A DNA stretch of 64,000 bases from Terriglobus sp. TAA 43 (GTDB taxonomy: Bacteria > Acidobacteriota > Terriglobia > Terriglobales > Acidobacteriaceae): positions 186,001 to 250,000 of the forward strand of contig NZ_JUGR01000002.1 in the NCBI RefSeq assembly GCF_000800015.1, read 5' to 3'. The notes under the pieces were generated by a model. The model was not told the DNA's origin and made no database searches. It saw only the letters and a program-made list of their open reading frames with translations. Position numbers and translations under genes: made by a program. Below are positions 39,665 through 56,000 of the stretch, in pieces (position 1 is the stretch's first letter; every line of letters begins with the position of its first letter).

Positions 39665-40222
39665 TCATTTCTGTGGTCCAGGCTCCCCGGAGTACCCCTG
39701 TTCGGCCATGCGTTTTCCCATCGCTACATAAGCCATAGTGTCACGCGGCTGCCAGGTATCCAAGCCGTCAACGTAGCGGTTGTACATGCAGAAGGCAGCG
39801 GCGATCAGAACCGTGTCGTGAATATCGGTGTCAGTCGCGCCTGCCTCTTTCGCTTTTTCGACCAGTTCCTTCGTGACGCGTTTTCCGTCGATTTGAACTG
39901 CTTCAGCGATTGCAAGGAGAGCCTTGAGCTTATTTGGAATGGGCGCTGAAAGGTAGTCTCTGCACACGGCGTCGATGGCATCGATCCCTTCCGGGTGGAG
40001 GTGGGCCGCCGCGAAACTGTGACTCGTCTGGCAAAAGAAACAGTCGTTACGTGACGAGACGAACGATGCGATGAGTTCGCGGTCGGCAGAACTTAAGCCT
40101 TCATTGCCCGATGTGTGCAGAAGTACATGAGCGAGTTCGCGCATAGGTTTGGCAGTCTCGGGGCGGAAGCTGAAGCCGGCAGTAATTCCGGGCATACCTT
40201 CGGGCAGATCGATGTGCGGCAT
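39665..40222 (-). CDS. AhpD-like peroxidase-related protein (carboxymuconolactone decarboxylase family)
   Basis: 185 residues, cytoplasmic. The all-helical CMD/AhpD fold is shown by SSADRELIASFVSSRNDCFFCQTSHSFAA, which carries the CXXCXXXH redox motif (Cys near 60 and 63), and by AFCMYNRYVDGLDTW near the C-terminus. Such peroxidase-related proteins reduce peroxides or detoxify small electrophiles, using lipoyl or thiol reductants. It begins two bases after the stop of the MFS transporter gene, so both share a transcript. A close paralogue lies on the other side of the transporter (41678-42250). Confidence 0.88.
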   Translation of the reverse strand: MPHIDLPEGMPGITAGFSFRPETAKPMRELAHVLLHTSGNEGLSSADRELIASFVSSRNDCFFCQTSHSFAAAHLHPEGIDAIDAVCRDYLSAPIPNKLKALLAIAEAVQIDGKRVTKELVEKAKEAGATDTDIHDTVLIAAAFCMYNRYVDGLDTWQPRDTMAYVAMGKRMAEQGYSGEPGPQK

Positions 40223-40224
40223 AG

Positions 40225-41502
40225 CTACTCCTCCGATAAATCAGGGTTTGCAAAATTCAGGTTGGAAGCGTGCAACGCTCCGTTGCGTTCGCTTCGAAGT
40301 GCCAGGCTCACTGCTGCAGCGGCGACAGCAACTCCTGCCAGGTAGACGATAAAGCGCGAATGGTAGAAGCCAGCGGTGTCATACAGATGGCCAATAAATA
40401 CGGGCCCTGTGCCGCCTCCCACTGCATAGGCCGTCCAGGTGAGACCGTACAGCACTGAGAAATGCTTGCGGCCGAAGTAGTGCGCAAGGAGATACGGAAG
40501 AACATCTGCTTCGCTTCCCAGGCCCACTCCGAGTAGTGCAGCTCCGAGCAATGCCATGAGGGAGGAACCGGCAAAGGCGAGTACAAGCGTGCCCAGCGCA
40601 GAGAGCAACAGGATGATCGTCTGGATGCGCTGTGGCGAATAGCGGTCGATCAGAAGACCGACACATAGCCTGCCTAAGATCCCCGCTCCGCCCCGCACAG
40701 ACAGAGCGAGTGCCGCGCTTTCTGCGCTAAGGCCATGGCCCGTGAGGATGGCGGCAAGATTGGTGACAAGGCCGTTCTCGCTGAATGCAGACAATATTGT
40801 GATCGCACAAAGAACCCAGAACGCAGTACTTGCCAGAGATGCTTTGACGGACATGCCAGCGGGCATTGCGCTGCTTAGATCGAGATTGGGGATGGGACGG
40901 TTTCGAACCAGCAAGGCAGTGAGCGGCAGACCAATCAGGGCGATGCCACCCAGAAGGGTGTAAGCGCTTCGCCATCCTTGATGTGTAATTGTCCACTGAG
41001 TCAAAGGCGGTATAAGAATTGACCCAACGCCGCTGCCGGTCAGAATCAAAGCGAGTGCCAGGCCGCGTCGTTTCTGAAACCAAGTAAGCGCCGTTCGCGC
41101 ATAAGCAAACTGCGCGGTGCCGTTTGCGACTAACCCTAGGACGAAAAACGTCAGGTAGAAGCGGTGGATGTCACCATTCAAGCGGCTGAGCGATGCCAGT
41201 GCCAATGCGAAGACAACGATCGAAGGAAGAATGACGCGGCGTGGCGGGAAACGGTCCAGCAGCATTCCAAGGAAGGGAGAAACCACGGCTACCGTGATGG
41301 CGGCTATTGCAAACGAGCCATCCAACGCTTCGCGCTTCCAGCCAAAGGCAGTATGAAGAGGATTTAGGAAAAGGCTAAAGGTGTAAGGGACGATAGGCGA
41401 GAAACTCGTCATCACACCCACGAACGCCGCTGCCGTTATGCCCCAGCCCGGATACCGAATCGAGCGTTCGTCGTTTATTTCAGAGGTGCTTGGATCAGGC
41501 AT
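40225..41502 (-). CDS. MFS transporter (OFA/monocarboxylate-like)
   Basis: 425 residues from the ATG at 41502, preferred over 41553 because an AAGGAC site lies just upstream. Twelve membrane spans are visible, with LLDRFPPRRVILP after span 2 and RRGLALALILTGSGVGSILIPPL in span 5, a pattern of the oxalate:formate antiporter/monocarboxylate porter group. That name reflects the family; the actual substrate here is unknown. An anion such as oxalate is conceivable given the oxalate decarboxylase in the same region. Co-transcribed with the downstream AhpD-like gene, and divergent from the second AhpD-like copy. Confidence 0.87.
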   Translation of the reverse strand: MPDPSTSEINDERSIRYPGWGITAAAFVGVMTSFSPIVPYTFSLFLNPLHTAFGWKREALDGSFAIAAITVAVVSPFLGMLLDRFPPRRVILPSIVVFALALASLSRLNGDIHRFYLTFFVLGLVANGTAQFAYARTALTWFQKRRGLALALILTGSGVGSILIPPLTQWTITHQGWRSAYTLLGGIALIGLPLTALLVRNRPIPNLDLSSAMPAGMSVKASLASTAFWVLCAITILSAFSENGLVTNLAAILTGHGLSAESAALALSVRGGAGILGRLCVGLLIDRYSPQRIQTIILLLSALGTLVLAFAGSSLMALLGAALLGVGLGSEADVLPYLLAHYFGRKHFSVLYGLTWTAYAVGGGTGPVFIGHLYDTAGFYHSRFIVYLAGVAVAAAAVSLALRSERNGALHASNLNFANPDLSEE

Positions 41503-41677
41503 TCGTTCCGATGTCCTTCTATGGGCACAATCCAAAGTTGTTTGCTGATCCATGCGAATAGTAGGCAGCGGAACGCGATCTTGTCTTCAATCTAAAGTTG
41601 GATATGCGGTTTAGATCTATCCTCTTCGTGCGATACCGGTTTATGCTTTCTCGCAATCACGTAACCAGGAGAGATCG

Positions 41678-42250
41678 GTGCCACACATTCAACTCCCTGA
41701 AGGTCTACAAGGCATCCGAAGCGCCATGGCGTTTCGGCCTGAAACAGCAAAGCCTCTGAATGAACTGGTGGAGGTTTTGCTGCACGCGCCAAACTCCCTG
41801 CCACAGGCGGATCGCGAGTTGATTGCCACTTATGTCTCCTATCTGAATGACTGCTACTTCTGCCAGACGGTGCACGGGTCCATCGCGGCAGCGTGCCTGG
41901 ACGACGACTACGATCTGGTAAAGCGCGTGAAGGCAGATTTTATGTCTGCAGAGATTTCAGAAAAGCTCAAGACACTCCTTGTCATCGCAGCCAGGGTGCA
42001 GACCGGCGGCAAAAACGTTACCTCCACCAACATTGCTGCCGCCCGTGCGCAAGGCGCTACCGACGTGGAGATCCACGACACAATACTTATCGCTGCGGCC
42101 TTTTGCATGTACAACCGATACGTCGACGGGCTGGACACGTGGCAACCTCGTGATGAGGCTCTTTACCTCGAACGCGGTAAGAAGACTGCACGTGAGGGAT
42201 ATGTGGAGATGAGCAAGGAGTATCTTCCTTCGGTGGCCAGTTCATCCTGA
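41678..42250 (+). CDS. AhpD-like peroxidase-related protein, second copy
   Basis: 190 residues starting at a GTG (41678) behind AGGAGAGATC. It shares the opening (MPHIQLPEGLQGIRSAMAF versus MPHIDLPEGMPGITAGFSF) and the closing AFCMYNRYVDGLDTWQPRD with the copy at 39665-40222. The CXXCXXXH motif (NDCYFCQTVHGS) is present. The two flank the MFS transporter, one on each strand. Probably a thiol peroxidase or electrophile-detoxifying protein, with the same unknown substrate as its paralogue. Confidence 0.88.
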   Translation: MPHIQLPEGLQGIRSAMAFRPETAKPLNELVEVLLHAPNSLPQADRELIATYVSYLNDCYFCQTVHGSIAAACLDDDYDLVKRVKADFMSAEISEKLKTLLVIAARVQTGGKNVTSTNIAAARAQGATDVEIHDTILIAAAFCMYNRYVDGLDTWQPRDEALYLERGKKTAREGYVEMSKEYLPSVASSS

Positions 42251-42423
42251 ACTAACCGCTCCGACCAGATGTCTGTGGGATAACACGCCATCTCTCGCCC
42301 GGTTCGCATTCATGCAATTGATTCCTTGCGTTTTGTCACATTCCTTCAGTTACATTAGTGGGCCAGTGCAGCCGTCGTGAGACAGTACGGCTGCCACTGA
42401 TCACGCTGTTTCGAGGAATGTTC

Positions 42424-43980
42424 ATGAGCATTCGCGTCCGCATGGATCGTAAGTTTGTGTGTTTTGCCGCTGGAGTGCTGCTTACGGCTGCGGCTGCCCA
42501 TGCACAGGGAAATCTGACCGGGTATTGGGATCTCCGCGTACCGAACGGGGATGGTACCTTTCGCGAAACCTTCTTCGAACTTACTCAGAACGGCAATACC
42601 CTGACGGGCAAGTGGTACGGCCGCGACCCAAATGGAATTCCCATGCAAGGCAGCATCGAGGCCGGCAAGGTTCACCTCGCTACCGTTCCCCCTCCTCCAC
42701 CGCCCAATGCAGCTCCCGGCGGTTTTGGAGGGCGGCCCACGGTATACGACGGCACCCTGAATGGCGAAACCATCACGCTTACCTCCACCGGCTTTCGCGG
42801 CCAAACCATGACGGGCGATGCAGTGCGCAGCACGCGTGAGGCAGCCATGCCACCCGCGCCACTTCCGCTTCCCGCACTACGCGACCTGCCAGACAACGGC
42901 CTGGTGCGTACGCCGCCAATGGGATGGAACTCCTGGAACAAGTTCGCAGGTCGCGTTACAGAAGCAGATGTGCGTGCCGCTGCGGACGCACTTGTATCCA
43001 CCGGTATGAGCAAGATGGGCTACATCTACGTGAACATTGATGACACGTGGGAGGGTGGCCGCGACGCCAACGGCAACATCCAGTTGAACCAGAAGTTTCA
43101 CGACATGAAGGCGCTGGCTGACTATGTCCATTCCAAAGGTTTGAAGCTTGGAATCTACTCTTCGCCAGGACCCAAGAACTGTGCCGGATACACAGGCAGT
43201 TTTGGCCATGAAGCGCAGGACGCGAAGACATACGCGTCCTGGGGTATCGATTACCTAAAGTACGACCTTTGCAGCGCGCGCAATATCTACAAATCCACGC
43301 CCGAGATCCATCAGGCCCTCTATCAGAAAATGGGAGAGGCCCTTCAGAGTACTGGCCGTCCAATCGTCTTCAGCCTTTGCCAGTACGGCGAGAACGATCC
43401 GTGGAAGTGGGGTTATAAGGCCGGTGGAAACCTGTGGCGAACCACGGGGGACATTCGCGATCAGTGGGAATCCATGGACAGGATCGGCTTCTCGCAGATT
43501 GACATCGCAACCTACAACCGCCCGGGCCGCTGGAACGACCCTGACATGCTCGAAGTGGGTAATGGCGGCATGAGCGCTGACGAGTACCGCACGCACATGA
43601 GTCTGTGGTCACTGCTGTCCGCGCCGCTTATCGCAGGCAATGATCTGAGCAACATGACTGAAGAAACGAAATCGATTCTTATGAACGGAGATGTCATCGC
43701 CATCGATCAGGACCCCGCTGTCCATCCCGTACAACGACAGGCGAAGCAAGGAAGCGTAGAAGTACTCACCCGCTTGATGTCAGATGGATCGACCATCGTC
43801 GGCCTCTTCAACCGTGGCAACGCACCCGCACCCGCCAGCCTGGATTGGACTGCCCTCTCCACTCGCCCCGGATTCAAAGTGCGTGATCTCTGGAAACACG
43901 AACCAGTCAACGTAAGCGGCGCCACGTATCAGGCAAACGTGCCGGTCCACGGCGTGGTTCTCCTGCGGGTCACGCCATAA
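42424..43980 (+). CDS. Secreted alpha-galactosidase (GH27)
   Basis: 518 residues from the ATG at 42424 with a GAGGAA site. The signal peptide cleaves near AAAHAQ. Residues 28-130 form a small beta domain with the pattern LTGYWDLR...LTGKWYGRDPNG...GFRGQTMTGDA, seen in other acidobacterial exported proteins and placed before the catalytic part. The GH27 barrel starts at PPMGWNSWNKF. The nucleophile is D281 in YLKYDLCS and the acid/base is D374 in WNDPDMLEVGN. A C-terminal beta-sandwich ends the chain. Releases alpha-linked galactose from galactomannan or raffinose-type sugars. Convergent with the quinoprotein gene, 15 bp away. Confidence 0.94.
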   Translation: MSIRVRMDRKFVCFAAGVLLTAAAAHAQGNLTGYWDLRVPNGDGTFRETFFELTQNGNTLTGKWYGRDPNGIPMQGSIEAGKVHLATVPPPPPPNAAPGGFGGRPTVYDGTLNGETITLTSTGFRGQTMTGDAVRSTREAAMPPAPLPLPALRDLPDNGLVRTPPMGWNSWNKFAGRVTEADVRAAADALVSTGMSKMGYIYVNIDDTWEGGRDANGNIQLNQKFHDMKALADYVHSKGLKLGIYSSPGPKNCAGYTGSFGHEAQDAKTYASWGIDYLKYDLCSARNIYKSTPEIHQALYQKMGEALQSTGRPIVFSLCQYGENDPWKWGYKAGGNLWRTTGDIRDQWESMDRIGFSQIDIATYNRPGRWNDPDMLEVGNGGMSADEYRTHMSLWSLLSAPLIAGNDLSNMTEETKSILMNGDVIAIDQDPAVHPVQRQAKQGSVEVLTRLMSDGSTIVGLFNRGNAPAPASLDWTALSTRPGFKVRDLWKHEPVNVSGATYQANVPVHGVVLLRVTP

Positions 43981-43995
43981 GGGCACCGCCCGTCG

Positions 43996-45672
43996 CTATC
44001 GCAACACGAAGGCATACAAGGTGTCACCGGCTGCAGCCGTAACGTACTGCTGCCCATCAAGCACGAACGTCGTTGGGCCGTTGGTGACCGGGTTGCCCAG
44101 CCCCGCGTGCCACAGGATTGCACCTGTCGCGGCATTGAACGCAACGAAGCTTGAGACGGTGTCGCCCGTGAACAGCAGGCCGCCCGCCGTGGTCAGCATG
44201 CCGGAACGTGCGCTACCGGCAATCCACGGGTGTTCCCATTTCAGCTTGCCCGTCTTGTAGTCCAGCGCGCGCAACGCAAATCTCGAGTAGCCGCCTCGAT
44301 CATTGCCCGCCCATCCTTCAGGCTTCTTGTTGTTGTCGAAGACGTAGTACACGCTATAGGCGTCGGATGCGGCGACGTAGAACAGTCCGGTCTGCGGATC
44401 GTAAGAAGGCGGATGCCAGTTCGCCGCGCCTGACTGGTTGGGCGACACCAACGAGCCATTTGGCTTAGGCATCTTCTCTAGGTTTGGGATGGGCTGGCCC
44501 TTGCTGTTGAGACCGAGCGTCCAGCTCTGGTGAGCGAACGGTGTGCTGACCAACGCCTTGCCATTCGTGCGATCCAGTACGAAGAACCAACCGTTACGGC
44601 TCGCCTGCGCCAACAGCTTGCGCTTCTGGCCATTAATCACGCCATCGATGAGCACCGGCGTCTGCACGGCATCCCAGTCATGCGTGTCGTGAGGATTGGG
44701 TTGGAAGTACCACACCAGCTTGCCTGTATCCGGGTTCAGTGCACATATGGTGCCGGTGTAGAGGTTGTCCCCCGGCCGTGCTTCACCGTTAATGACGGGC
44801 TGCGCATTGCCTGTTCCAAAGTAGTAGAGGTTCAACTCCGGATCGTATGTTCCGGGCACCCACGTCATGCCACCGCCGTGCAACATGGCTTCGTCGTTGG
44901 GCCAGCTTTTCGCCTCCGGCTCCCCAGGGTTGGGATGCGTATACCAACGCCACTGCAGTGCCCCCGTCTCTGGATCGTGTGCTTCGACAAAGCCGGGCAC
45001 ATCAAAGTCATCCCCGGAGACACCTACCATCACATGGTTCTTAACGATGGTGGGCGGAACACTGCCGAAATTGAACTTCGCGCGATTCGCTTCAGCCTCG
45101 CCGATCTCCGCATGCCACTTCTCCTGGCCGGTGGATCGGTCAATCGCGACGAGGTAATCGTCTTCCGTCTCAAAGTAGACCGTATTGCCACGAACGGCCA
45201 CACCGCGGTTGCCGATAGCCTCTCCGCCCTTGCTCTTCCAATCGAACTGCCAGAGCTTGACGCCGGTGCGAGCATCCACCGCCCACACATGGCTGGGAAC
45301 AGTGAAGTACAACACGCCGTCAACCTCAAGCGGAGTGGATGAAATGCGACGGCCACCGCCCGACGTCTCGTTGACGCGGAAGGTCCATGCCAGCTCCAGT
45401 TGCCTGACGTTGGTCGTGTTGATCTTCGTCAGAGGGCTGTAACGACGGCCGGACAGGTCTCCGTTATAGGTTGGCCAATCTCCGTCGGCAAGGCTGGGCG
45501 CGCCTGCATCCGAGGGTGCCTTCTGCGTTGCCGCGGTGCGAACTTCTCTAGGATCGCGCTTAGTGGTGTCGTGCGGATTGTTCTGATTTACGGGCGTCTG
45601 CGCCAGAAGCGGCATGCAGACGGCAAGCAGGAACAGTGGCAGGTTACGAAACTTCATCGCGAGGCCGGTCAT
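43996..45672 (-). CDS. Secreted quinoprotein (PQQ-dependent dehydrogenase fold)
   Basis: 558 residues with a signal peptide (MKFRNLPLFLLAVCMPLLAQ). Eight-bladed propeller W-motifs recur (DARTGVKLWQFDW, DRSTGQEKWHAEI, DPETGALQWRWY, NPDTGKLVWYF). The active-site region HDTHDWDAVQTPVL and NLYYFGTGNAQP are present. The vicinal Cys-Cys ring of methanol/ethanol dehydrogenases is absent (IGNRGVAV instead). I recall an acidobacterial group whose PQQ binding is uncertain, called acido-empty-quinoproteins; membership is not verified. The start overlaps the stop of the diheme cytochrome c gene by four bases, so the cytochrome is the likely electron acceptor. Confidence 0.88.
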   Translation of the reverse strand: MTGLAMKFRNLPLFLLAVCMPLLAQTPVNQNNPHDTTKRDPREVRTAATQKAPSDAGAPSLADGDWPTYNGDLSGRRYSPLTKINTTNVRQLELAWTFRVNETSGGGRRISSTPLEVDGVLYFTVPSHVWAVDARTGVKLWQFDWKSKGGEAIGNRGVAVRGNTVYFETEDDYLVAIDRSTGQEKWHAEIGEAEANRAKFNFGSVPPTIVKNHVMVGVSGDDFDVPGFVEAHDPETGALQWRWYTHPNPGEPEAKSWPNDEAMLHGGGMTWVPGTYDPELNLYYFGTGNAQPVINGEARPGDNLYTGTICALNPDTGKLVWYFQPNPHDTHDWDAVQTPVLIDGVINGQKRKLLAQASRNGWFFVLDRTNGKALVSTPFAHQSWTLGLNSKGQPIPNLEKMPKPNGSLVSPNQSGAANWHPPSYDPQTGLFYVAASDAYSVYYVFDNNKKPEGWAGNDRGGYSRFALRALDYKTGKLKWEHPWIAGSARSGMLTTAGGLLFTGDTVSSFVAFNAATGAILWHAGLGNPVTNGPTTFVLDGQQYVTAAAGDTLYAFVLR

Positions 45673-46445
45673 TTTAGCGTGTCCAGATAAGCAGTCAGGT
45701 TGTGGATGTCGGCATCGGTGTATTGATCGAGCAGGGCCTCGTGCGCCGCAAACGGATGAACCACGGTAACGACTGTTCCGGGCGTGCGGCTGAAGGTATG
45801 CGAAACCCCGTCGGCGCTTCGCAGCGTCACGTTGAAGTCGTCAATACGAACCACATCTCCGCTATACGTTTTGCCATTGTGCAACTTCACGGTGACCAGC
45901 AACTTGGTAGCGCCGCGAATGCCGCTACCGGGAAACAGGAACTTCTGCTGTAACGCCGCAGTGGTGTACTTCTTACCCACTCCCGCCAGATTTCCCGTGG
46001 GCGAGTGACACTTGCTGCATCCGCCTGCGCCGTTGAAGTATGCTTCGCCGGCTTTCGCGTCGCCGCTCAACAGATTCGTGGGCTGGTCGTTGTAGCCGCT
46101 GCGCAGAATCTTGTTGATGGAAAGAGTCAAAAACTGCGACAGGTCCGCATTCTCCTTGTCGCTGAACTTGAAATTGTGCTGCGGAATCGTTCGGAGCAAA
46201 GGCCCAAGGTCGCGACCGTGCAGTGCCTCACGGCGATCGCGCAGGACGGCTTCAGAACGGATCATGTCCGGACCTGCTGGCGTACCGCGGGCATCGTCAC
46301 CGTGGCACCGCGCACAGTTGCTGCTGAACAGTTTTGCACCGCGCTCCGCCGATACAGGATCGACCACCGCCTTGGGAAACTGCGCCGACGCAGCAGCGCA
46401 TATCGACAGGGCGAAACCTAAAATGAACCGCAAATGCTTGCTCAA
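45669..46445 (-). CDS. Secreted diheme cytochrome c
   Basis: 258 residues with a signal peptide (cleavage near AAASAQ). Two heme-binding CXXCH sites are visible: NCARCHGDD (about 43-51) and GCSKCHSPTG (about 141-150). A beta-rich region between about 180 and 230 follows the second heme, then a helix typical of c-type ends. It overlaps the quinoprotein gene by four bases, so the two should be produced together and pass electrons from substrate to the respiratory chain. It also follows, 100 bp away, the unknown gene at 46546-47748. Confidence 0.9.
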   Translation of the reverse strand: MSKHLRFILGFALSICAAASAQFPKAVVDPVSAERGAKLFSSNCARCHGDDARGTPAGPDMIRSEAVLRDRREALHGRDLGPLLRTIPQHNFKFSDKENADLSQFLTLSINKILRSGYNDQPTNLLSGDAKAGEAYFNGAGGCSKCHSPTGNLAGVGKKYTTAALQQKFLFPGSGIRGATKLLVTVKLHNGKTYSGDVVRIDDFNVTLRSADGVSHTFSRTPGTVVTVVHPFAAHEALLDQYTDADIHNLTAYLDTLK

Positions 46446-46545
46446 AATTCACTCACTTCCCGAAAACATTGCTCTCACATCAGTACAGCGGTCCCGGCGG
46501 AACTCTTGATATCTTTCGTCTGCATAGCCCTGCTCCCGACAAGCC

Positions 46546-47748
46546 TCAGGTTCCCATCGCAACAGCAAGCAATGCCCCCAGGTCCAGCGCAGACTTGGAC
46601 TCAACTCCGCGCGGAAGTGTAGGACCAATTGCAAGCGCCTGGCGGTGGCCTTCGAACCAGACGAGGAACACTGACCGATCGTGTCCCGGCAACCGTTGCT
46701 GATTGATCCACTGGTAGTACGCAGCCATGTCCGCATCGATCAGCGAGCCAACCGGATCAAGCTCAACCTCTCGCTGGACATTTGAAAGCAACTCGTTCAT
46801 GGGTCTTTGCCGTTGTCTAGGCGCAAACCGTACGAGCAGGGTCGTCGCTGAGGCCCGTCGCAGCACCTCGCGCGCTGTCCATTGAGCAAAGGTGGTGCTG
46901 AATATCTGCGTGCCGGAACCGTCAGTCAGCAGCTTCATCTGGAATCGATCCAGTGTTCCTCCGCCAAGTCCCAACTGTTCTGGCTGCAGGTGCGCAATGT
47001 AGTTCCGCAGGCTTTCCGGCCCAGTACCGGGCTTGCCTACCTCGTTTTGAATTTTGTCCAGAAGAGCTCTGCGCGCCGGCAAGAGAGCATCGTAAGACAC
47101 ACAGGCGAGACTTGGATTGGCGCCCGCTGATTTGCCGCCATCGACGTACCAATGCCCAAAAGGAATGGGGTGGCTTTTGGCGCGGGACACAGTTGCCGCC
47201 AACAGCTTTTCCATACCACCTTCGGGCTGAATATTGCTGAAATAAGTACCGTGCGGCCGCAGCTGCGCAAAGAGAATGTTGGAGTAAGAATCTACCCCTG
47301 CACCGATAACCGCGATGCCCAACCTGGGCACGACCGGCAATCGAGCCGGGATGGCCGCGTGCAATCCCTCGCTATACGTGGCGGCCGCTTTCTGAAAAGC
47401 GATCATCTGATGCGTACTCCATAAGTTAGCGGAGAAAGCCTCAGTGAACGTTAGGGGCTGATTGACCCAATCAAGCTTGCTTTGTTCCCCGGATACCTGG
47501 ATCTGTGCAAACTCTTTGAACACGCGTTCCAGCTGCGTCTGCGAAAGATTGCTCAGGTAGTTCAATTCGCTGCCCAAAGCATCGCGCTCTGCCGGAAAAT
47601 TGTGGTCGTACTCAATTAGTTCCTGGAGCAAGCTGGGAAGAAAGCTCAGCGGCATACGCCGGAAGAGCTCTAGGTGTGACACAGCGATGCCGCGTGCTTC
47701 GGGCTGATACTGCAGAAAGTTACCGGCAACCAGTGATGTGGGGAGCAT
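46546..47748 (-). CDS. Uncharacterised protein in quinoprotein operon
   Basis: 400 residues, no family recognised. No signal peptide or membrane span is visible, and it contains a GVDSYSNILFAQLRPHGTYFSNIQPEG segment and a GLGGGTLDRFQMKLL segment. It starts two bases after the stop of the Tat-exported sulfatase-like gene (TAG-ga-CATG on the complement) and ends 100 bp before the diheme cytochrome gene, so it belongs to that operon. It could be a cytoplasmic or Tat-co-transported partner. The tight spacing to the upstream gene argues for a functional link. Function cannot be named. Confidence 0.75.
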   Translation of the reverse strand: MLPTSLVAGNFLQYQPEARGIAVSHLELFRRMPLSFLPSLLQELIEYDHNFPAERDALGSELNYLSNLSQTQLERVFKEFAQIQVSGEQSKLDWVNQPLTFTEAFSANLWSTHQMIAFQKAAATYSEGLHAAIPARLPVVPRLGIAVIGAGVDSYSNILFAQLRPHGTYFSNIQPEGGMEKLLAATVSRAKSHPIPFGHWYVDGGKSAGANPSLACVSYDALLPARRALLDKIQNEVGKPGTGPESLRNYIAHLQPEQLGLGGGTLDRFQMKLLTDGSGTQIFSTTFAQWTAREVLRRASATTLLVRFAPRQRQRPMNELLSNVQREVELDPVGSLIDADMAAYYQWINQQRLPGHDRSVFLVWFEGHRQALAIGPTLPRGVESKSALDLGALLAVAMGT

Positions 47749-47750
47749 GA

Positions 47751-48917
47751 CTATAGCAACTCTCGAATAGGCGACCCTTGCGCGCGGCCTGCGGTAAAAC
47801 CCATCAGAGAACCCAGTGTGGGAACCAGATCAATGGGTTGCACGACGCGATCGTAGACCACGCCCTGGCGAACACCAGCACCCAGGGCCATCATCCAGGT
47901 GGTACGAGAGGCCGCATCGCCCGTTCTGTGATGCTGAAATCCATTGCCGCCTGCCACAAAGTCGGCGTCCCGCCCAAAATCCGGAAGGATGAACATCGTG
48001 GTGTTTCCTGCATACTCCGGGTCGCTTTGAACAGCCTTCCAGAGATCGGCGCACAGTCGGTCGGTGCGCTGGATCGCCTCAACATACAGTGAGTACGCGC
48101 CGGTATGCGCAACATCAATGTCATGCATTGTGAGCCACAGAAAGCTAGGAGATTGCTGACGCATCAACTGCTTGACGACGTAGAGCGATAGCTCGTCTGG
48201 ACTCGATAACGTCCGCGCATGCGACATGAAGTCTTCCACGGACAGCTTCAGGACATTCTCAAGCTGCTGTAGTTCGACCTCGCCGCCTCCTAGTACCGGA
48301 GTAAAGAGTGGAGTCTCATAGTTATCGCGCAGAATATGGTCCAGGTTGCCAGCTTTTCCGCGAGTGGCTGCACTCAACAAGTGCTTGGGAAGAATGACAC
48401 CTGCTCCGAAACCTGGGCCGTAGGAGCGATAGTCGCTTTCGCCAATGCGATTGAACCCATTGCTGGGCGCCACGACCCATGTGTTCGATGCTGGCCGACG
48501 TAGGTCTTTGCGGAAATATTCAAACGCGGTGGGGTTTGCCGGTGGAACGGCAGAAAAGTTATTAAACGTTTCATAGACGCCCGTGATCAGGCTAGCCGTC
48601 GCGACGTAATGACCCAGGATGCCCTGGTTCGTCATGTGCGTAAAGAAGCTGGACTGAGGAGCCAATTCCTGCAGCAGGTGAGGAATGTTCGCCTGGCCCT
48701 GAGGCGCAAACGTTTCCTGATCCCGCGCTCCTCCTCCAAAGGTCACTACGATCACCTTGCGCTTCTGGCGAATCGTCTGACCGTGCAGGAAAGGACTGCC
48801 ACCAACCAAAGCCGAACCGAGCGCCATGCCGGCAACATCGCGAAGAAAATCACGCCTGTTGAGGCTCAAGAGGCGTGGATCGAAGAGGTCAAAAGATGAA
48901 CGACCGTGAATAGCCAT
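47751..48917 (-). CDS. Tat-exported sulfatase/alkaline-phosphatase-superfamily protein
   Basis: 388 residues with a twin-arginine signal (LNRRDFLRDVAGMALGSALVG). The core opens KVIVVTFGGGARDQETFA, a variant of the metal-binding start of the alkaline phosphatase superfamily. Further metal-site elements may be WLTMHDIDVAHTG and FILPDFGRDA, then GFQHHRTGD near the C-terminus. A nucleophile Cys/Ser or Thr typical of sulfatases is not evident in the CXPXR form, so activity is uncertain. First gene of the operon with the unknown protein, diheme cytochrome and quinoprotein. The Oar-type receptor lies directly upstream on the same strand. Confidence 0.8.
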   Translation of the reverse strand: MAIHGRSSFDLFDPRLLSLNRRDFLRDVAGMALGSALVGGSPFLHGQTIRQKRKVIVVTFGGGARDQETFAPQGQANIPHLLQELAPQSSFFTHMTNQGILGHYVATASLITGVYETFNNFSAVPPANPTAFEYFRKDLRRPASNTWVVAPSNGFNRIGESDYRSYGPGFGAGVILPKHLLSAATRGKAGNLDHILRDNYETPLFTPVLGGGEVELQQLENVLKLSVEDFMSHARTLSSPDELSLYVVKQLMRQQSPSFLWLTMHDIDVAHTGAYSLYVEAIQRTDRLCADLWKAVQSDPEYAGNTTMFILPDFGRDADFVAGGNGFQHHRTGDAASRTTWMMALGAGVRQGVVYDRVVQPIDLVPTLGSLMGFTAGRAQGSPIRELL

Positions 48918-49008
48918 TTCCTTCGCGAAGTAAGCAAGCCGGGTGAAACAGTCAGGCCCGGTGCTTCGGAATTGACCCTTCGGTCAACCCAAAAGCCCGG
49001 GCCGCTTA

Positions 49009-52000
49009 CTAGTAATACAGCTTGAGGGCGAACTGGATCTGACGCGGATCGTTCGGAGCGTCGCGTGTTGAACCGATTCGTCCAAAGTTCGTTGTGTCGT
49101 TGAAGTTAAGTGAGTTGCCGATGGCCACTACACCATTTCCGCCGAAGCCCGGTGCGTTGAAGTTCGGATGGTTCAGGATGTTGAAGAACTCAGAGCGGAA
49201 CTGCATCGACACCCGCTCATTGAATTTGAAGTTCTTGAACACAGAGAAATCAAAACGCTTGAACGGTGGTCCGTAGGTAGTGGCAGAGGTTGCGCCAAGT
49301 GCCTGCTGTCCCGTAAGCATCTGGCAATTCGCAATGGTCGGCGTAGGCCCGTTGAAGGTGTAAGGGCAGGGCTGCTGGAAGGCCGCCGGGTTGTTAAACC
49401 AGTACAGGTTGGAGGTGTTCCCCACAACCGCACGGCGAATACCCCGCTTCTGATCTTGTCCCGGGGCATGCACCGAGTAGCAGCTAGAACCGGCTGTGAC
49501 TGCGGTCGGGCAGCCGATGGTGATTGGCTGGCCATTTTGAAGCGTAACGATGTACTGCAGGCTCCAGTCGCCGACAAGCATATTGGTCACCTTGCCGGAA
49601 TTGGCAAGGAACTTCTTGTTTGTGCCGAAGGGCAGTTCGTATCCGCCACTGCCGTGGAACACATTGCGGATATCGAATGCCGCCAGGCTCCAGTCTGCAC
49701 CCGTACCGAATGCCGGAATGTAAGGCGCCCGGAATCCGCTCACGCTGCCACCGTTCAGAAGGTCTCCGGAGTTAGTCATGGTCTTGGAATAGGTGTACGT
49801 CAACAGATAGGTGAAACCGTGCGAGAGCCTCTGCTCAAGCTTGGTTTGCAATCCGTTGTACACACTTGCACCCAGTGTCCGTTGATAACTGCCATTAGTC
49901 GCGAAGTCGGGGAACGGGATGTAGTTATGGTTGGTCGGAGTATCAGGATTATTGACGTTACGCACCAACGGCGTGCCATTGGGAATCAGTTGCGACACGC
50001 GATTGTTTCCGATGCTCGCCTGTAGATGGCTGGCATGCGTGTACACATAGGCCGCGGTGAACGACATGTTATTGGTGAGCGCGTACTGGATGCTGAGGTT
50101 GCTGCTGACCGTATTCGGCGTCTTGAAATCAAACTGCAATCCCGAGAGTCCGATGCCAGACGCACGCACTGCCAGAGGCGTGAACGCCGCGCATGTAAGG
50201 CCAGATTCCATGGTTGCGCTGCCGCCCGGTCCGGCTGTCGAACATGTTCCGTACGGGTTTGCCCCCGTGCCGAACGATGCCGAGTCCGATCCGTTGTTCT
50301 GGAAGTTATATGAGTATGAGAACGGGTAGTTACGTCCGATGTTCGGTCCATACCCCGCATTCTCAAATGCGTTGAAGAACAGTCCAATGCCCGAGCGGAT
50401 CACAAGCTTGGGAGTTGCAGTCCAAGCGAATCCGAAGCGCGGCGCAAAGTTATTCTTCTGCGTTTGAAGGACTCCCTTGCCGTACTGGTCCGTCACCAGA
50501 AGGTTGATGCCATCTTTCGCCAACAGATCAAGGAATCCCGCACCGTTCAGAGATGGATTATTGGCCGTGGATGAGAACTGCCGAGGCGCCTTGCCACTGG
50601 CGGGCACGATGAACGTAGGCGCGCCATTCGGCGGACCGCCCTGCACAAAGTTCGCCTGAGCGCCATTTGTTTCCGCGATAGGGGTGAAGTAGTCCCAACG
50701 CAGACCGACATTCAAGGTAAACGAGGGGGTTAGCTTGATGTCATCCTGGAAGTAAGCGGCATAGTAACCGCGTGCGTCATAGGTCTTGCTGATGGCGGAA
50801 GCCTGTACCTGGTTGGAGCCACCGACGTAGCCGACCCCATTGGGAACCGTGGCCGCCGTGGGTGTCAGCAGGAATGCAGCGCGACCGGTCAAATCACCCG
50901 CCTGGTTAGGCACGCCGGTAAAGTTGCCGGTGAAGCTGAACTCACCCTTGCCGAACGGTGGTTGCAGAGTGTTGAAGTGCACATCCTGGTATTCGAAACC
51001 TGCCTTGAAGCTGTTCTTGCCATACACCTTGGTGAAATCGTCGACGAATTGCAGTGTCTGGCTGACTTCATCGGAGGGCAGGTAATCGCTGGTGCCAAGG
51101 TTGCTGAGACCAGATATTAAGATTGCCGGCAGGCCGCCGTTAAGGCCACCCTGCGGGATTCCCTGGATACCGTACTGCGCGGGGATGCCACTCACACTGC
51201 TGTTCGGACCCGCGCGCGTGGTGTGCAGGTGGTTGAAGCCGACGCGAGCCACGTTGATGGTGCTTGGTGTGAATACGTGCGTGTAGGCCAACACAGCCTG
51301 ATTTGATTTCGCTGTCTGAATACCCTGCTGGAAGGCTCCGCCGTCCGCGACTCCGCCGAAGATGCTGGGAACGAATTGCGGATCGTCCACATAGCTGAAC
51401 CGGCCGAAGATCTGATCCTTGTCGCTGGGGTTGAAATCCAGACGCACGTCGAACGCATTGCGGTGCTCAAATAGCCGAGGGCTGTTGGCAAAATTGTTCG
51501 AATATCCCGACGAGGTCGGTGCGGGATAGAGATTCAACAACTTGACGGAGTTTTGGTCAATACGGCCCGCCGGAATCTGGTTCAGATTACAAGCGGCCAA
51601 CGTGAACGCCGGCGTGCTTGGGGAGCAGGTGCCGAACGGGTCGCGCGCGAAACCGGTAGTTGTCGCCGCTCTGCCAGAGACAGGATCCACGACACCCGCA
51701 GTCACTGCCCTGGTGGTTGCCGGATCCATAACGGTTCCAAAAGGGATGCTGCGTCCCAGGTAATCCGTGCGATTTCCGCCTGTCTGCAGCGTGATCATGT
51801 CGGTAAGGTTCGTGTAGCCACTGTTGCGTTCCAGCGCGGTGGGAACCGAGCCGGGCAGCACCGTGCCCTGCACGCGCCGAAGCCCCTCGTAATCCCCAAA
51901 GAAGAAGGCCTTGTTCTTAAAGATCGGCCCGCCTATTGAGGCGCCAAACTGGTTCTGCCGAAGCCTTCCCTTTGGACGACCATTGTTGTTCTCAAACCAG

Positions 52001-52842
52001 TCCGCCGCGTCCAGCTTATCGTTGCGGAAGAATTCCCAGACTGCGCCGTGGAAAGCATTTGTACCTGACTTGATGGTTGCATTCAGTACGGCACCAGCAG
52101 AGCGACCAAGCTCTGCACTGAAATCTGCCGTTTGCACCTTGAATTCCTGGATAGCGTCCACTGGCGGCAGGATGACGAAATTCGTACCGTTCAGAAAGTC
52201 GGCGGCGTTGGAATTGTTATCGATTCCATCGAGCAGGTAGTTGTTCTGGGCTGGTTGCAGTCCGTTTGCAGTAAACGCACCGGAAGCGGCATTACCGCGC
52301 GTGTCTGCCTGAGAACTATTAACGCCCGCGCTTAGCTGCGCCAGAAACGTGAAGTTACGACCGTTCAGTGGAAGAGAATTAATGGTGTGCTGATCCACAA
52401 TCTGGCCGACGGAAGCTTCGTCCGCCTGCAATTGCGGAGGAGCCGTAGAAACAGTCACGGTATCGGACGTGGAACCAGTTTTGAGAGCAATGTTTACTTT
52501 GAGATTCTGACCGACCGTCACAGTCAGATTCTGCTGTGTTGTCGCAGAAAAACCCGGCGCTGAAACAGTGATGGTGTAATGCCCAATACGGACCGGTGAG
52601 AAAGTGTAAATGCCGCCATCGCCGGTCTTGGATTCAAGGCTGATTCCCTGATCCGTGTTCAGCAATTTCACGTCGGCGTTCGGGACCACCGCGCCGGTTG
52701 AATCCTGTACCACGCCCGTGATGGCACCCTGGTCGACCTGCGCATGGGCTGCCCCCATCACAAGCATCAGAACCAAGCCGACGACAGGAGCGGTTAGATG
52801 AAGATGCTGAATTCCACCGAGTATTCTGCGCGCAAAAGCCAT
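49009..52842 (-). CDS. Oar-like TonB-dependent receptor with carboxypeptidase-regulatory domain
   Basis: 1277 residues. A signal peptide ends near AHAQ (about 35). A CarboxypepD_reg domain (about 40-115, ITGVVQDSTGAVVPNADV) precedes the plug (about 120-245, PLNGRNFTFLAQLSAGV and NNYLLDGIDNNSNAADF). A long 22-strand barrel follows, ending RQIQFALKLYY with the terminal aromatic residue expected for outer-membrane insertion. Oar-like receptors are abundant in Acidobacteria and are thought to import large ligands or secrete signals. AAGGGGG lies eight bases before the ATG, and a good promoter is at 52920-52949. Divergent from the ASPIC-TPR fusion gene. Confidence 0.94.
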   Translation of the reverse strand: MAFARRILGGIQHLHLTAPVVGLVLMLVMGAAHAQVDQGAITGVVQDSTGAVVPNADVKLLNTDQGISLESKTGDGGIYTFSPVRIGHYTITVSAPGFSATTQQNLTVTVGQNLKVNIALKTGSTSDTVTVSTAPPQLQADEASVGQIVDQHTINSLPLNGRNFTFLAQLSAGVNSSQADTRGNAASGAFTANGLQPAQNNYLLDGIDNNSNAADFLNGTNFVILPPVDAIQEFKVQTADFSAELGRSAGAVLNATIKSGTNAFHGAVWEFFRNDKLDAADWFENNNGRPKGRLRQNQFGASIGGPIFKNKAFFFGDYEGLRRVQGTVLPGSVPTALERNSGYTNLTDMITLQTGGNRTDYLGRSIPFGTVMDPATTRAVTAGVVDPVSGRAATTTGFARDPFGTCSPSTPAFTLAACNLNQIPAGRIDQNSVKLLNLYPAPTSSGYSNNFANSPRLFEHRNAFDVRLDFNPSDKDQIFGRFSYVDDPQFVPSIFGGVADGGAFQQGIQTAKSNQAVLAYTHVFTPSTINVARVGFNHLHTTRAGPNSSVSGIPAQYGIQGIPQGGLNGGLPAILISGLSNLGTSDYLPSDEVSQTLQFVDDFTKVYGKNSFKAGFEYQDVHFNTLQPPFGKGEFSFTGNFTGVPNQAGDLTGRAAFLLTPTAATVPNGVGYVGGSNQVQASAISKTYDARGYYAAYFQDDIKLTPSFTLNVGLRWDYFTPIAETNGAQANFVQGGPPNGAPTFIVPASGKAPRQFSSTANNPSLNGAGFLDLLAKDGINLLVTDQYGKGVLQTQKNNFAPRFGFAWTATPKLVIRSGIGLFFNAFENAGYGPNIGRNYPFSYSYNFQNNGSDSASFGTGANPYGTCSTAGPGGSATMESGLTCAAFTPLAVRASGIGLSGLQFDFKTPNTVSSNLSIQYALTNNMSFTAAYVYTHASHLQASIGNNRVSQLIPNGTPLVRNVNNPDTPTNHNYIPFPDFATNGSYQRTLGASVYNGLQTKLEQRLSHGFTYLLTYTYSKTMTNSGDLLNGGSVSGFRAPYIPAFGTGADWSLAAFDIRNVFHGSGGYELPFGTNKKFLANSGKVTNMLVGDWSLQYIVTLQNGQPITIGCPTAVTAGSSCYSVHAPGQDQKRGIRRAVVGNTSNLYWFNNPAAFQQPCPYTFNGPTPTIANCQMLTGQQALGATSATTYGPPFKRFDFSVFKNFKFNERVSMQFRSEFFNILNHPNFNAPGFGGNGVVAIGNSLNFNDTTNFGRIGSTRDAPNDPRQIQFALKLYY

Positions 52843-53094: not shown

Positions 53095-56000
53095 ATGGCG
53101 CTTCCACCTACCGGTTTCCAGCAGTTGAGCCGACGCAGTCTCCTGAAGGGATTGGGTCTGACGCCGCTCCTTCTTCGTGCATCGCCCCTCATTGGTGAGT
53201 GGAAGTCCACCCTGAGCCAGGCGTCTTCCCCGCCCCCGTTGTCACTCGTCGACCTGCGCTATGATCCAAGTTATCCGGCTAGGTCACCGCTTGAGGACGT
53301 ACTGCGCAGACTGCGCCCGGGTTCAGATGAATTTGTCACTGAGGGCTACGCTCACGAGATCGGGCTGATTCTCGACAGCTGGACCGTTTGCCTGAAAGAA
53401 CGAGACTTCGCCAGGCTCCGAACTTCTTTCCATGACTCGCTTGAAGCGTCATCGTTTGTTCCGACGCGCGAGGTGGCACTACGCCAGGAAGGCGGCATTC
53501 ACAGTTTCACGCGCGAATTCAACCCTGCGCTTACGCAACCGGGTGAACGACTCGTGCGGGAGTTGGAACGTTGGCTGCCGTCAGATCTGCACATTCGAGT
53601 TGCTGAGTTAGAGATAACAGCAATTGATGTATTACCCGGCGAACCGCTTAGTGTGAGAACGAACGTTCGATACAGCATCGTCGCAACGTCGCCGAAAGAC
53701 GAAAGAGAACAGCGGATTGGATTGTGGCAGATGGATTGGAGCCGCTCCTCTTCCGGAACCGATGCCGAGTCTTGGAACCTGCGCCGCTGGCAACCAACAT
53801 TGGAGAAGCGGACCGTACTGCAGGGCCCCGCGTTTGTGGACATCACCCCGCGGTCGCTCGGAAATGTTCCATCGTACAGAGAACAGTTGCTTCGAGGTGC
53901 AGATGAGTGGCGCACGCAGTTGGACGGAGCGAGCGGCATTGATGTCTACGGCAACAATGGCGTAGCCGCCGGTGATTATGACGGGGATGGCTTCGATGAC
54001 CTCTACATCTGTCAGCCCGCTGGGCTGCCGAACCGGTTGTACCGCAACCGTGGCGATGGCACATTCGAAGATGTGACCGAGAAGGCTGGCGTTGCCGTGC
54101 TGGACAACACTGCATGCGCCATCTTTGCTGACTTTCGCAACATCGGCCGGCAGGATCTCCTGGTGGTCTGTGGCACCGGGCCATTGCTCTTTCTCAATCG
54201 CGGCGACGGTACGTTCGAACGCAAGCATGACGCCTTCCGGTTTTCCCGTCCACCGGAGGGCACCTTCACCCATGCCGCTGTCGCCGACTACGATGGCGAT
54301 GGACGGCTCGACATCTACTTCTGCGTCTATAGCTATTACTTGGGATTGGATCAATACCACTATCCAATGCCCTACTTCGATGCGCGGAACGGACCACCGA
54401 ACTTCCTATTTCACAATGAAGGCGATGCCGCCTTTGTGGATCGAACGGAAGCATCTGGACTCACTGCAGAGAATGACCGCTACAGCTTTGCATGCGCATG
54501 GGGAGAATCTGTAAAGAGCGGATCTCCGGACCTATATGTGGTCAACGATTTCGGCCGGAACAATCTTTATCGCAATCAGGGAAACGGAACGTTCAAGGCA
54601 GTTTCGACCCAGGCCCACGTTCAAGACGTAGGAGCCGGGATGAGCGCGGCTTGGGCAGACATCAACAACGATGGAAATGCTGACTTGTATGCCGCCAACA
54701 TGTGGTCTGCGGCTGGACAGCGCGTCTCGCAGCAGAAGCTATTTCACGAGAAGAGCCCAGAGGCGATCCGCGCACTGTACCGCACGCATGCCCGTGGCAA
54801 CGCGCTCTACCGCAATCAGGGTGACGGTACTTTTCAAAACGTCAGCGCATCAGCAGACGTTGAGGTTGGCCGCTGGGCATGGTGCTCCGACTTCCTTGAT
54901 TTTGACCATGATGGTTTCCAAGACATCTATGTGACAAACGGCTACATCACCTCTCCAGTGCAAGACGGGACGGCAGCCACTGAAGGAAAGCGGAACGTCA
55001 GAAACCAAGTCGTCAAGGATATCGACCTCGGCAGCTTCTTCTGGCGTCAGGTGGTGGGAAAATCATCCGACGCAGCAACACCCTCGCTGGCGTACGAGCA
55101 CGGTTGGAACGCACTCAACGAATTGATCCGTACCGATAACTCATGGAGCGGCAACGAACGTAACGTCTTACTTGCGAATAACCGTGATGGCACTTTCTCC
55201 GAAGTTTCCGGACCAGCGGGATTGGACTTTCTGGAGGATGGCCGCTCCTTTGCTCTAGCGGACCTTGACCATGACGGCCGTCTCGAAATCATTCTGAAGA
55301 ATCGCAATGCTCCGCAAATCCGCATCCTTCGCAACACGCTGAAAGACATCGGCGGTTCCATCCCATTTCGCCTGCGGGGAACCACCAGCAATCGTGATGC
55401 GATCGGCACTGCGATCACACTTACGGTGGGGGATCTAAAGCAGACGCGTTATGTGCAGGCTGGTTCGGGCTTTCTCGCACAACATTCCAAAAACCTGTTC
55501 TTTGGGATTGGCCATGCGCAAACGTCGATCGATGCGACAGTACATTGGCCCAGCGGTCTGGTGCAGCAGTTCAAGGAACTGCCAGCAAATCACCAGATCG
55601 AACTGACCGAGGGAAAAGCTACCTTCACGGCAAAGCCGTTCAGCAGCAGTCCAGCTATACACGAGTCAGCGGAATCCGCACACGACTCACATACTTCTCC
55701 GGCGGAGCCTGTGCACACGTGGTTGTTGGATCCCTTGAAAGCGCCTGGGTTCAGCCTGCCCGATCTTGCCGGGTCGATGCGAACGTTGTCCTCCACGGAG
55801 GGGAAAGTGACACTTCTCCACTTCTGGTCGATCGACTCACCCGCTTGCAGCGATCAACTAGTGCGATTGCAAAGGGACCAGCGAGCCATGCAAGCGGCTG
55901 GAGTGGAACTCCTGACAGTCAACGTCGACCGAGCGGAAAGCCTACAAAAAGCGCGCGAGTATGCCGCAAGGCAGAAATTCAACTTCCCCGTACTCTTCGC

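Follow-up and report, generated by a model that had tools for sequence, protein, structure and literature searches.

One operon or two cassettes? A sulfatase-like/unnamed gene pair and a cytochrome/quinoprotein unit behind an Oar-type receptor gene in Terriglobus sp. TAA 43

Do four adjoining genes of Terriglobus sp. TAA 43, a member of the Acidobacteriota, make up a single oxidation system, or do two independent units lie side by side? All four are on the minus strand, at positions 43996-48917 of a 64,000-nucleotide stretch of DNA (the window) that comes from a 4.95 Mb genome, 99.88% complete and designated G000 here. Read in order, their open reading frames (ORFs) encode a sulfatase-like protein of the alkaline phosphatase superfamily with a signal of the twin-arginine translocation (Tat) type (47751-48917), a protein of 400 residues that is its steady partner (46546-47748), a diheme cytochrome c (45669-46445; TTG start, two CxxCH motifs and, by eye, a Sec-type leader), and a quinoprotein that the cytochrome partners from upstream (43996-45672; NCBIfam TIGR04528, 'acido-empty-quinoprotein group A'). 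We will call the 400-residue protein the unnamed protein. A preliminary description of the window had joined all four in one operon, perhaps an extracellular oxidation system, with an Oar-type receptor upstream. Its ORFs, strand, coordinates and spacings (2, 100 and -4 bases) are confirmed, as is the receptor gene, which lies at 49009-52842 on the same strand, 91 base pairs (bp) upstream of the sulfatase-like gene.

Very probably, these are two separate cassettes arranged head to tail and not one four-gene operon, with the junction in the 100 bp gap (46446-46545) between the unnamed gene and the cytochrome gene. Cassette 1, the sulfatase-like gene with the unnamed gene, would be the downstream half of a conserved acidobacterial locus, and cassette 2, the cytochrome and quinoprotein genes, would have come to lie behind it in one Terriglobus clade. 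The lead of a single oxidation operon is corrected, and two sharper questions remain. The first concerns the role of a conserved, unnamed, Tat-linked pair beside Oar receptors in the Acidobacteriaceae and their relatives, soil-dwelling bacteria about whose uptake systems little is known. The second is why 'empty' quinoproteins, multi-copy and accompanied by a multiheme cytochrome, retain the lanthanide-type Asp, the catalytic Asp and further site residues after loss of the disulfide, in genomes that yielded no gene for synthesis of pyrroloquinoline quinone (PQQ), namely PqqC or PqqE.

Gene order and co-occurrence

The sulfatase-like and unnamed genes move as one unit in Acidobacteriota. Two collections were compared, the relatives set of 101 genomes (G000 and 100 relatives) and a named-genome set holding the best 80 of 203 relatives of the unnamed protein. 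Within the relatives set, the unnamed gene occurs in 31 genomes and the sulfatase-like gene, at E 1e-30, in 32, the extra one being a fragment in G007. This set gave 39 neighbourhoods, 38 fetched plus the window's own (L001), and by BLAST the sulfatase-like gene adjoins the unnamed gene in 38 of them; the remaining locus (L066; G018:C2, 7530-8228) holds, on profile search, short remains of both genes that have decayed together. Among the 80 named loci, the sulfatase-like gene is directly upstream of the unnamed gene in 79 and 212 bp downstream in L082. The labels of these records are those of Acidobacteriota, apart from one Rhodanobacteraceae metagenome-assembled genome and one entry called just 'bacterium'. 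A phylum sample of 396 genomes has the unnamed gene in 32, with the sulfatase-like gene adjacent in all 30 fetched loci, some of which repeat loci of the relatives set. Of 120 pairs compared, in which some loci are counted twice and starts were chosen by script, 109 have a spacing of -1 to 13 bp. Moreover, second, distant copies of the pair lie beside the first, in tandem or convergently, in seven cases by a strict score and in eight by a looser count; the neighbour of L145 is left out of this count, its site being of the ordinary kind (Asp, Ser, Asp-His) and a second partner being absent.

The cytochrome and quinoprotein genes likewise form a separate cassette, of redox type. The 20 regions fetched contain 21 quinoproteins, 19 of which adjoin a cytochrome with two or three hemes; the two lacking such a neighbour, L165 and L156, have respectively two heme motifs and one heme motif in their own reading frame. 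G000 itself has eight such pairs elsewhere (G000:C1 and C3; L149-L155 are among the regions), for at least nine with that of the window.

The order that would join the cassettes is rare. According to the preliminary description, wide occurrence of the unnamed gene without the cytochrome or quinoprotein would speak against a joint system. By gene order this is what is found: the cytochrome and quinoprotein genes both lie downstream of the unnamed gene in 3 of the 39 loci, the window included (a few contigs end too soon), and only 2 of the 80 named loci have such a pair at any place in the DNA fetched, one being the G011 contig again and the other carrying a convergent pair with a quinoprotein of a different group. 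By genome it holds in part, with 11 of the 31 genomes that have the unnamed gene lacking TIGR04528 over its cut-off and 6 lacking it at E 0.001. The four-gene order is present in three Terriglobus genomes, namely G000, G011 and G003 (at 95-97% identity). In a comparison of 19 genomes of the genus, the nearest quinoprotein relatives (71-76%) lie at least 0.5 Mb or one contig from the unnamed gene in G002, G005, G008, G009 and G012, and G016 (80%) and G017 (73%) have such a relative and no unnamed gene; G004 and G013, whose contigs end, were not judged for this distance. One four-gene system was rejected on this gene order, on the standalone cassettes and on the distant quinoprotein relatives.

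The spacing within the window had been taken to make co-expression nearly certain. That claim fails across the 100 bp gap, since the same gene order in G011 (L032) has a gap of about 373 bp, which shrinks to about 290 bp with the earliest cytochrome start that the frame allows. A promoter and terminator consensus scan of 45600-49100 returned sites no more numerous than in shuffles, none of them inside the junction. What survives of the proposed oxidation system is its parts, an Oar gene with the pair and a redox-type cytochrome/quinoprotein cassette, and not the four genes as one system.

Several observations weigh against the separation of the cassettes. All four genes share a strand and are closely spaced. 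The named loci represent only the best 80 of the 203 relatives, several of them on short contigs. The order survives in G011 despite divergence (61-62% identity for the unnamed protein, 78-79% for the quinoprotein). The quinoproteins of G000, G003, G011 and G004 group in one clade (100/98) that excludes those of G005, G009, G012, G016 and G017, in agreement with a smaller, earlier tree. The juxtaposition consequently looks inherited within that clade, where a useful link of the four genes is possible. Furthermore, TIGR04528 over cut-off is commoner in genomes with the unnamed gene. Across the 101 genomes, 20 have both, 11 the unnamed gene only, 16 the quinoprotein only and 54 neither (Fisher P 1e-4); the corresponding counts are 18, 9, 5 and 29 within the family (P 5e-5) and 7, 6, 1 and 28 in the family minus the genus (P 4e-4), all of these tests ignoring kinship and genome size. 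At the loose threshold of E 0.001 the counts are 25, 6, 52 and 18 (P 0.62). That threshold also gives matches in 8 of 14 control genomes, which makes the cut-off table the better one, and the idea that the unnamed gene and TIGR04528 are independent across genomes was dropped in view of it. Nevertheless, there is no association within the genus (11, 3, 4 and 1; P 1.0) or outside the family (2, 2, 11 and 25; P 0.58). Being absent in the very genus that holds the juxtaposition, the association does not follow gene order, and its cause may be a common lifestyle, not a common function.

The quinoprotein and its cytochrome

Both proteins of cassette 2 are of known kinds. The quinoprotein matches the PQQ propeller model PF01011 at 280 bits and, at 777.4 bits against a cut-off of 650, is a member of TIGR04528. 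This family is found in 77 of the 101 genomes at E 0.001 and in 36 over cut-off; G000 has 14 matches, at least nine of those listed being over cut-off. The closest PDB relative, similar over nearly the full length (E 3.6e-83), is 6zcv, which we take to be PedH. Against TIGR03075, the model for PQQ methanol/ethanol dehydrogenases, the quinoprotein reaches 412.3 bits, below the cut-off of 480.05. The absence of a vicinal Cys-Cys, remarked on in the preliminary description, is real, as judged by alignment with the PDB relative and with family rows. The positions are a gap, the loop having been deleted, in 24 of 24 rows (23 over the TIGR04528 cut-off and L145, which was unscored), so that the window's protein lacks the Cys-Cys just as the other 23 rows do; the more distant L156 has Ala-Gly there.

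The remainder of the site is largely kept. The window's quinoprotein retains R156, W271, N289, D332, D334, R359 and N418, presumably the equivalents of Arg109, Trp243, Asn261, Asp303, the extra Asp, Arg331 and Asn394 in methanol dehydrogenase numbering, and the catalytic Asp, the Asn metal ligand, the extra Asp and the Arg, Trp and Asn site residues are identical in 25 of 25 rows. These Arg, Trp, Asn, paired Asp, Arg and Asn residues are shared with PQQ alcohol dehydrogenases (6zcv, XoxF and TIGR03075), from which the quinoprotein differs, besides the Cys-Cys and the TIGR03075 score, in a Glu ligand that is Asp here and variable in the family, and in the loss of the W476-equivalent (R489). Among 14 aligned cofactor-site positions, 7 never vary and agree with 6zcv, compared with 48 of 466 columns overall (P 1.6e-4). 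The word 'empty' in the family name would appear, on these residues, to be a label only, with which the kept catalytic and metal residues are at odds.

In cassette 2 as we picture it, a periplasmic dehydrogenase unit, electrons would pass from the quinoprotein to the cytochrome. The alternative that the 'empty' quinoprotein binds nothing and is now a structural propeller, leaving cassette 2 without a redox role, takes support from the family name, from the missing loop and the lost Trp, and from the supply of cofactor, in that G000 has no PqqE over cut-off (best 69.6 against 381 bits; 17 of the 101 genomes have one) and no PqqC match (11 of 61 over cut-off in that search). It is countered by the invariance of half the cofactor-site positions, by the multiheme cytochrome beside nearly every quinoprotein and by six genomes (G002, G007, G009, G015, G017 and G031) with both TIGR04528 over cut-off and PqqE, and we regard it as unlikely. 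Given a kept site and neither PqqC nor PqqE found, the quinone, PQQ or another, would have to be supplied externally, or else the site has some other role. The available part of a report on PQQ uptake places the uptake receptor PqqU, within Acidobacteria, in Vicinamibacteria only and suggests that other Acidobacteria may depend on their own PQQ synthesis or on diffusion (PMC12124388). For 'empty quinoprotein', no paper was found in the open-licence PubMed Central (PMC) literature.

The sulfatase-like protein and its partner

The sulfatase-like protein matches no Pfam or NCBIfam family over cut-off beyond the general Tat-signal model TIGR01409, which it matches exactly at the cut-off (16.7). 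All 151 complete sulfatase-like ORFs, duplicates among them, have a twin-arginine-type motif, as RR in 143 and KR in 8. Its fold is that of PF00884 by profile comparison with 30 sulfatase genes of the relatives (probability 99.3%, E 2.5e-20, 329 columns); the Pfam scan itself gave no PF00884 match at E 1. The site is a different matter. Aligned to the sulfatases, the Cys nucleophile is replaced by His103, the Asp-Asp metal ligands by Gly-Gly (GG62-63) and the D(N/H)G motif by DFG, and the protein has, in the profile alignment, neither a Cys or Ser nucleophile nor the Asp pair; the doubt raised by the preliminary description about a clear nucleophile was well founded. His103 is kept in 31 of 31 rows of one alignment (A2) and in 63 of 64 rows of another (A4), the exception being the neighbour of L145, whose ordinary site supports the placement of the site columns. 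R65, H271, R316 and H330 are invariant in A2 and A4 alike, and D266 is kept in 31 of 31 and 63 of 64 rows. D266, H271 and H330 resemble what we take to be the one-metal half of the superfamily site, as in Escherichia coli alkaline phosphatase. By these alignments, the protein appears to have a rebuilt alkaline-phosphatase-superfamily site with His at the nucleophile position. The usual sulfatase mechanism was rejected, with no Cys or Ser and no Asp pair to serve it, and the protein, if an enzyme at all, should be unable to act as an ordinary sulfatase.

Membership of DUF1501 (PF07394) was also rejected, at 18.8 bits against a cut-off of 27. With that family, the sulfatase-like protein does have in common an FGR motif and a similar C-terminal half (probability 96.6%, E 4.8e-10, 121 columns). 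Two true DUF1501 genes are found elsewhere in G000; a strong DUF1501 gene (493 bits) crosses the left edge of the window, of which it occupies positions 1-158 (G000:C2:184881-186158).

The preliminary description had also found no family for the unnamed protein. Indeed, it matches no Pfam or NCBIfam family over cut-off and has no convincing PDB relative, the one match being at E 0.81. Two distant members of its family, L062 and L065, gave only sub-cut-off DUF matches in searches of Pfam, NCBIfam and PDB profiles. One of these, L062 (G000:C5:19797-36963), belongs to a second copy of the pair in G000, at 36% identity for the unnamed protein; nearby are a two-component system and, with an Oar gene of its own, a GH35/DUF5597 gene. 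In the broadest alignment, conservation is concentrated in the C-terminal half of the unnamed protein, and R142, G167, W200, G279, W290, R298, R311, D331, D338 and Y345 are among the invariant residues. By eye, the protein has no recognisable signal peptide.

The two partners show weak local similarity when their profiles are compared. The deepest profile of the unnamed protein aligned with that of the sulfatase-like protein over two collinear stretches. In the first, model positions 303-423 pair with 237-372 (score 29.3, P 0.0073, best of 60 column shuffles 24.6, hhalign probability 5%), and in the second, 160-203 pair with 53-106 (P 0.17). Shallower profiles gave P 0.025 and 0.012, and none of the column shuffles, first 24 and then 60, reached the real score. 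Against sulfatase, phosphodiesterase and DUF1501 sets, similarity is weak, with the real score reached by 1, 0 and 4 of 24 shuffles respectively, and the deeper profile lowered the scores against the sulfatase set (from 20.2 to 17.6) and the phosphodiesterase set (from 20.2 to 18.8), which speaks against a shared fold. It is possible that the unnamed protein has a degenerate alkaline-phosphatase-superfamily fold and a common origin with the sulfatase-like protein.

We propose that the two partners would fold together in the cytoplasm, the unnamed protein then leaving as Tat passenger of the sulfatase-like protein or serving as its dedicated maturation partner. In Tat passenger ('hitchhiker') complexes, of which PaoABC is an example in the portion of that literature available, one partner carries the RR signal and the other lacks it, as in the present pair; unlike PaoABC-type passengers, the pair is known from genes alone. 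Two points tell against the proposal, first that passenger export is something we infer from sequence, and second that a hydropathy measure failed to separate the leader of the unnamed protein, which was judged by eye, from that of the sulfatase-like protein. The unnamed protein could instead be a cytoplasmic chaperone or maturation factor that stays inside, in the manner of the signal-peptide-binding chaperones of redox enzymes, a suggestion that agrees with the absence of a signal peptide by eye, with the steady Tat-type partner and with the tight spacing. Such Tat chaperones are typically small and all-helical, and a protein of 400 residues, conserved mostly in its C-terminal half and weakly similar to the substrate itself, fits the role poorly; we hold this to be doubtful. 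We consider it improbable that the pair is an obligate heterodimer whose members arose long ago when one alkaline-phosphatase-superfamily fold was duplicated in tandem, in which the sulfatase-like copy would have an invariant His at the nucleophile position and one of the two metal sites, and the unnamed copy, having lost its site and signal peptide, would be exported, inactive, as a Tat passenger. If true, the superfamily would gain a new type of active/inactive pair, one tied to an Oar receptor.

The conserved locus and its surroundings

The limits 43996-48917 split a larger conserved locus in half. Its usual order is Oar receptor, in many cases a tetratricopeptide repeat (TPR) protein, sulfatase-like protein and unnamed protein, often with a divergent FG-GAP/ASPIC gene. 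Among the 61 named loci whose upstream sequence exceeds 6 kb, an Oar gene (>300 bits) precedes the pair in 59, or in 60 if a short weak match in L144 is counted, and a TPR gene stands between the Oar and sulfatase-like genes in 60 of 65 loci; the window has no room for one. The window's own receptor is of Oar type by its large barrel (OMP_b-brl_4; PF25183, 651.8 bits) and CarboxypepD_reg (73.6 bits), both over cut-off, with a Plug domain slightly below cut-off (22.9 against 23.9 bits). Pooling named and other genomes gives 84 loci longer than 13 kb, several contigs being counted in both. In these, a homologue of the window's FG-GAP/ASPIC protein occurs in 53, a glycoside hydrolase family 2 (GH2; beta-galactosidase-type) gene in 22 and a LacI gene in 22; the cytochrome and quinoprotein occur in 4, two of which (L032 and L075) are one G011 contig.

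The FG-GAP/ASPIC-UnbV-type protein of the window (53095-56997, plus strand), divergent from the Oar gene, has a TPR part and is assigned through the Pfam matches of its homologues. Three of these were scanned (L070, L072 and L031), of which L070 and L072 have an AhpC/TSA part and L070 also has TPR, fused to the propeller. Oar receptors together with TPR and FG-GAP/ASPIC genes are a known grouping in Acidobacteriota, to which the receptor, TPR and ASPIC genes of this locus correspond. The steady sulfatase-like/unnamed pair is the element added here. The available portion of PMC3174227, on ASPIC/UnbV and TonB, holds nothing on this gene group, and searches of the open-licence PMC literature brought up nothing on the pair as a constant element and no paper combining Terriglobus, TonB-dependent and sulfatase. 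Most likely, the pair is undescribed.

As for function, cassette 1 may handle a carbohydrate, perhaps a galactoside, at the outer membrane. The Oar receptor would import the carbohydrate, and the sulfatase-like protein would act on it or bind it in the periplasm. Support for the galactoside idea comes from GH2 and LacI genes, each present in roughly one locus in four; against it, it must be said that it draws on neighbouring genes in a minority of loci. We put forward the combined carbohydrate and passenger mechanism of cassette 1 tentatively, as a reading we would not favour outright; the whole explanation, two cassettes together with such a mechanism, we consider somewhat probable. By comparison, a single four-gene extracellular oxidation system, in which the pair prepares a substrate that the quinoprotein oxidises and for which Oar is the receptor, is improbable on the gene orders, gap and co-occurrence given above.

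Other genes in the vicinity can be described briefly. The FG-GAP/ASPIC-type gene at 53095-56997 is followed on the same strand by a second, at 57032-58849, and both have twin-arginine leaders by eye. On the far side of the locus, an alpha-galactosidase (Melibiase_2) gene at 42358-43980 (plus strand) is convergent with the quinoprotein gene and holds the same place in G003. Beyond it, two related carboxymuconolactone-decarboxylase-like genes, at 39665-40222 (minus strand) and 41678-42250 (plus strand), lie on either side of a major facilitator superfamily-type gene at 40225-41553; the two are 58% alike in the copy of G003, and the second alone was scanned for families.

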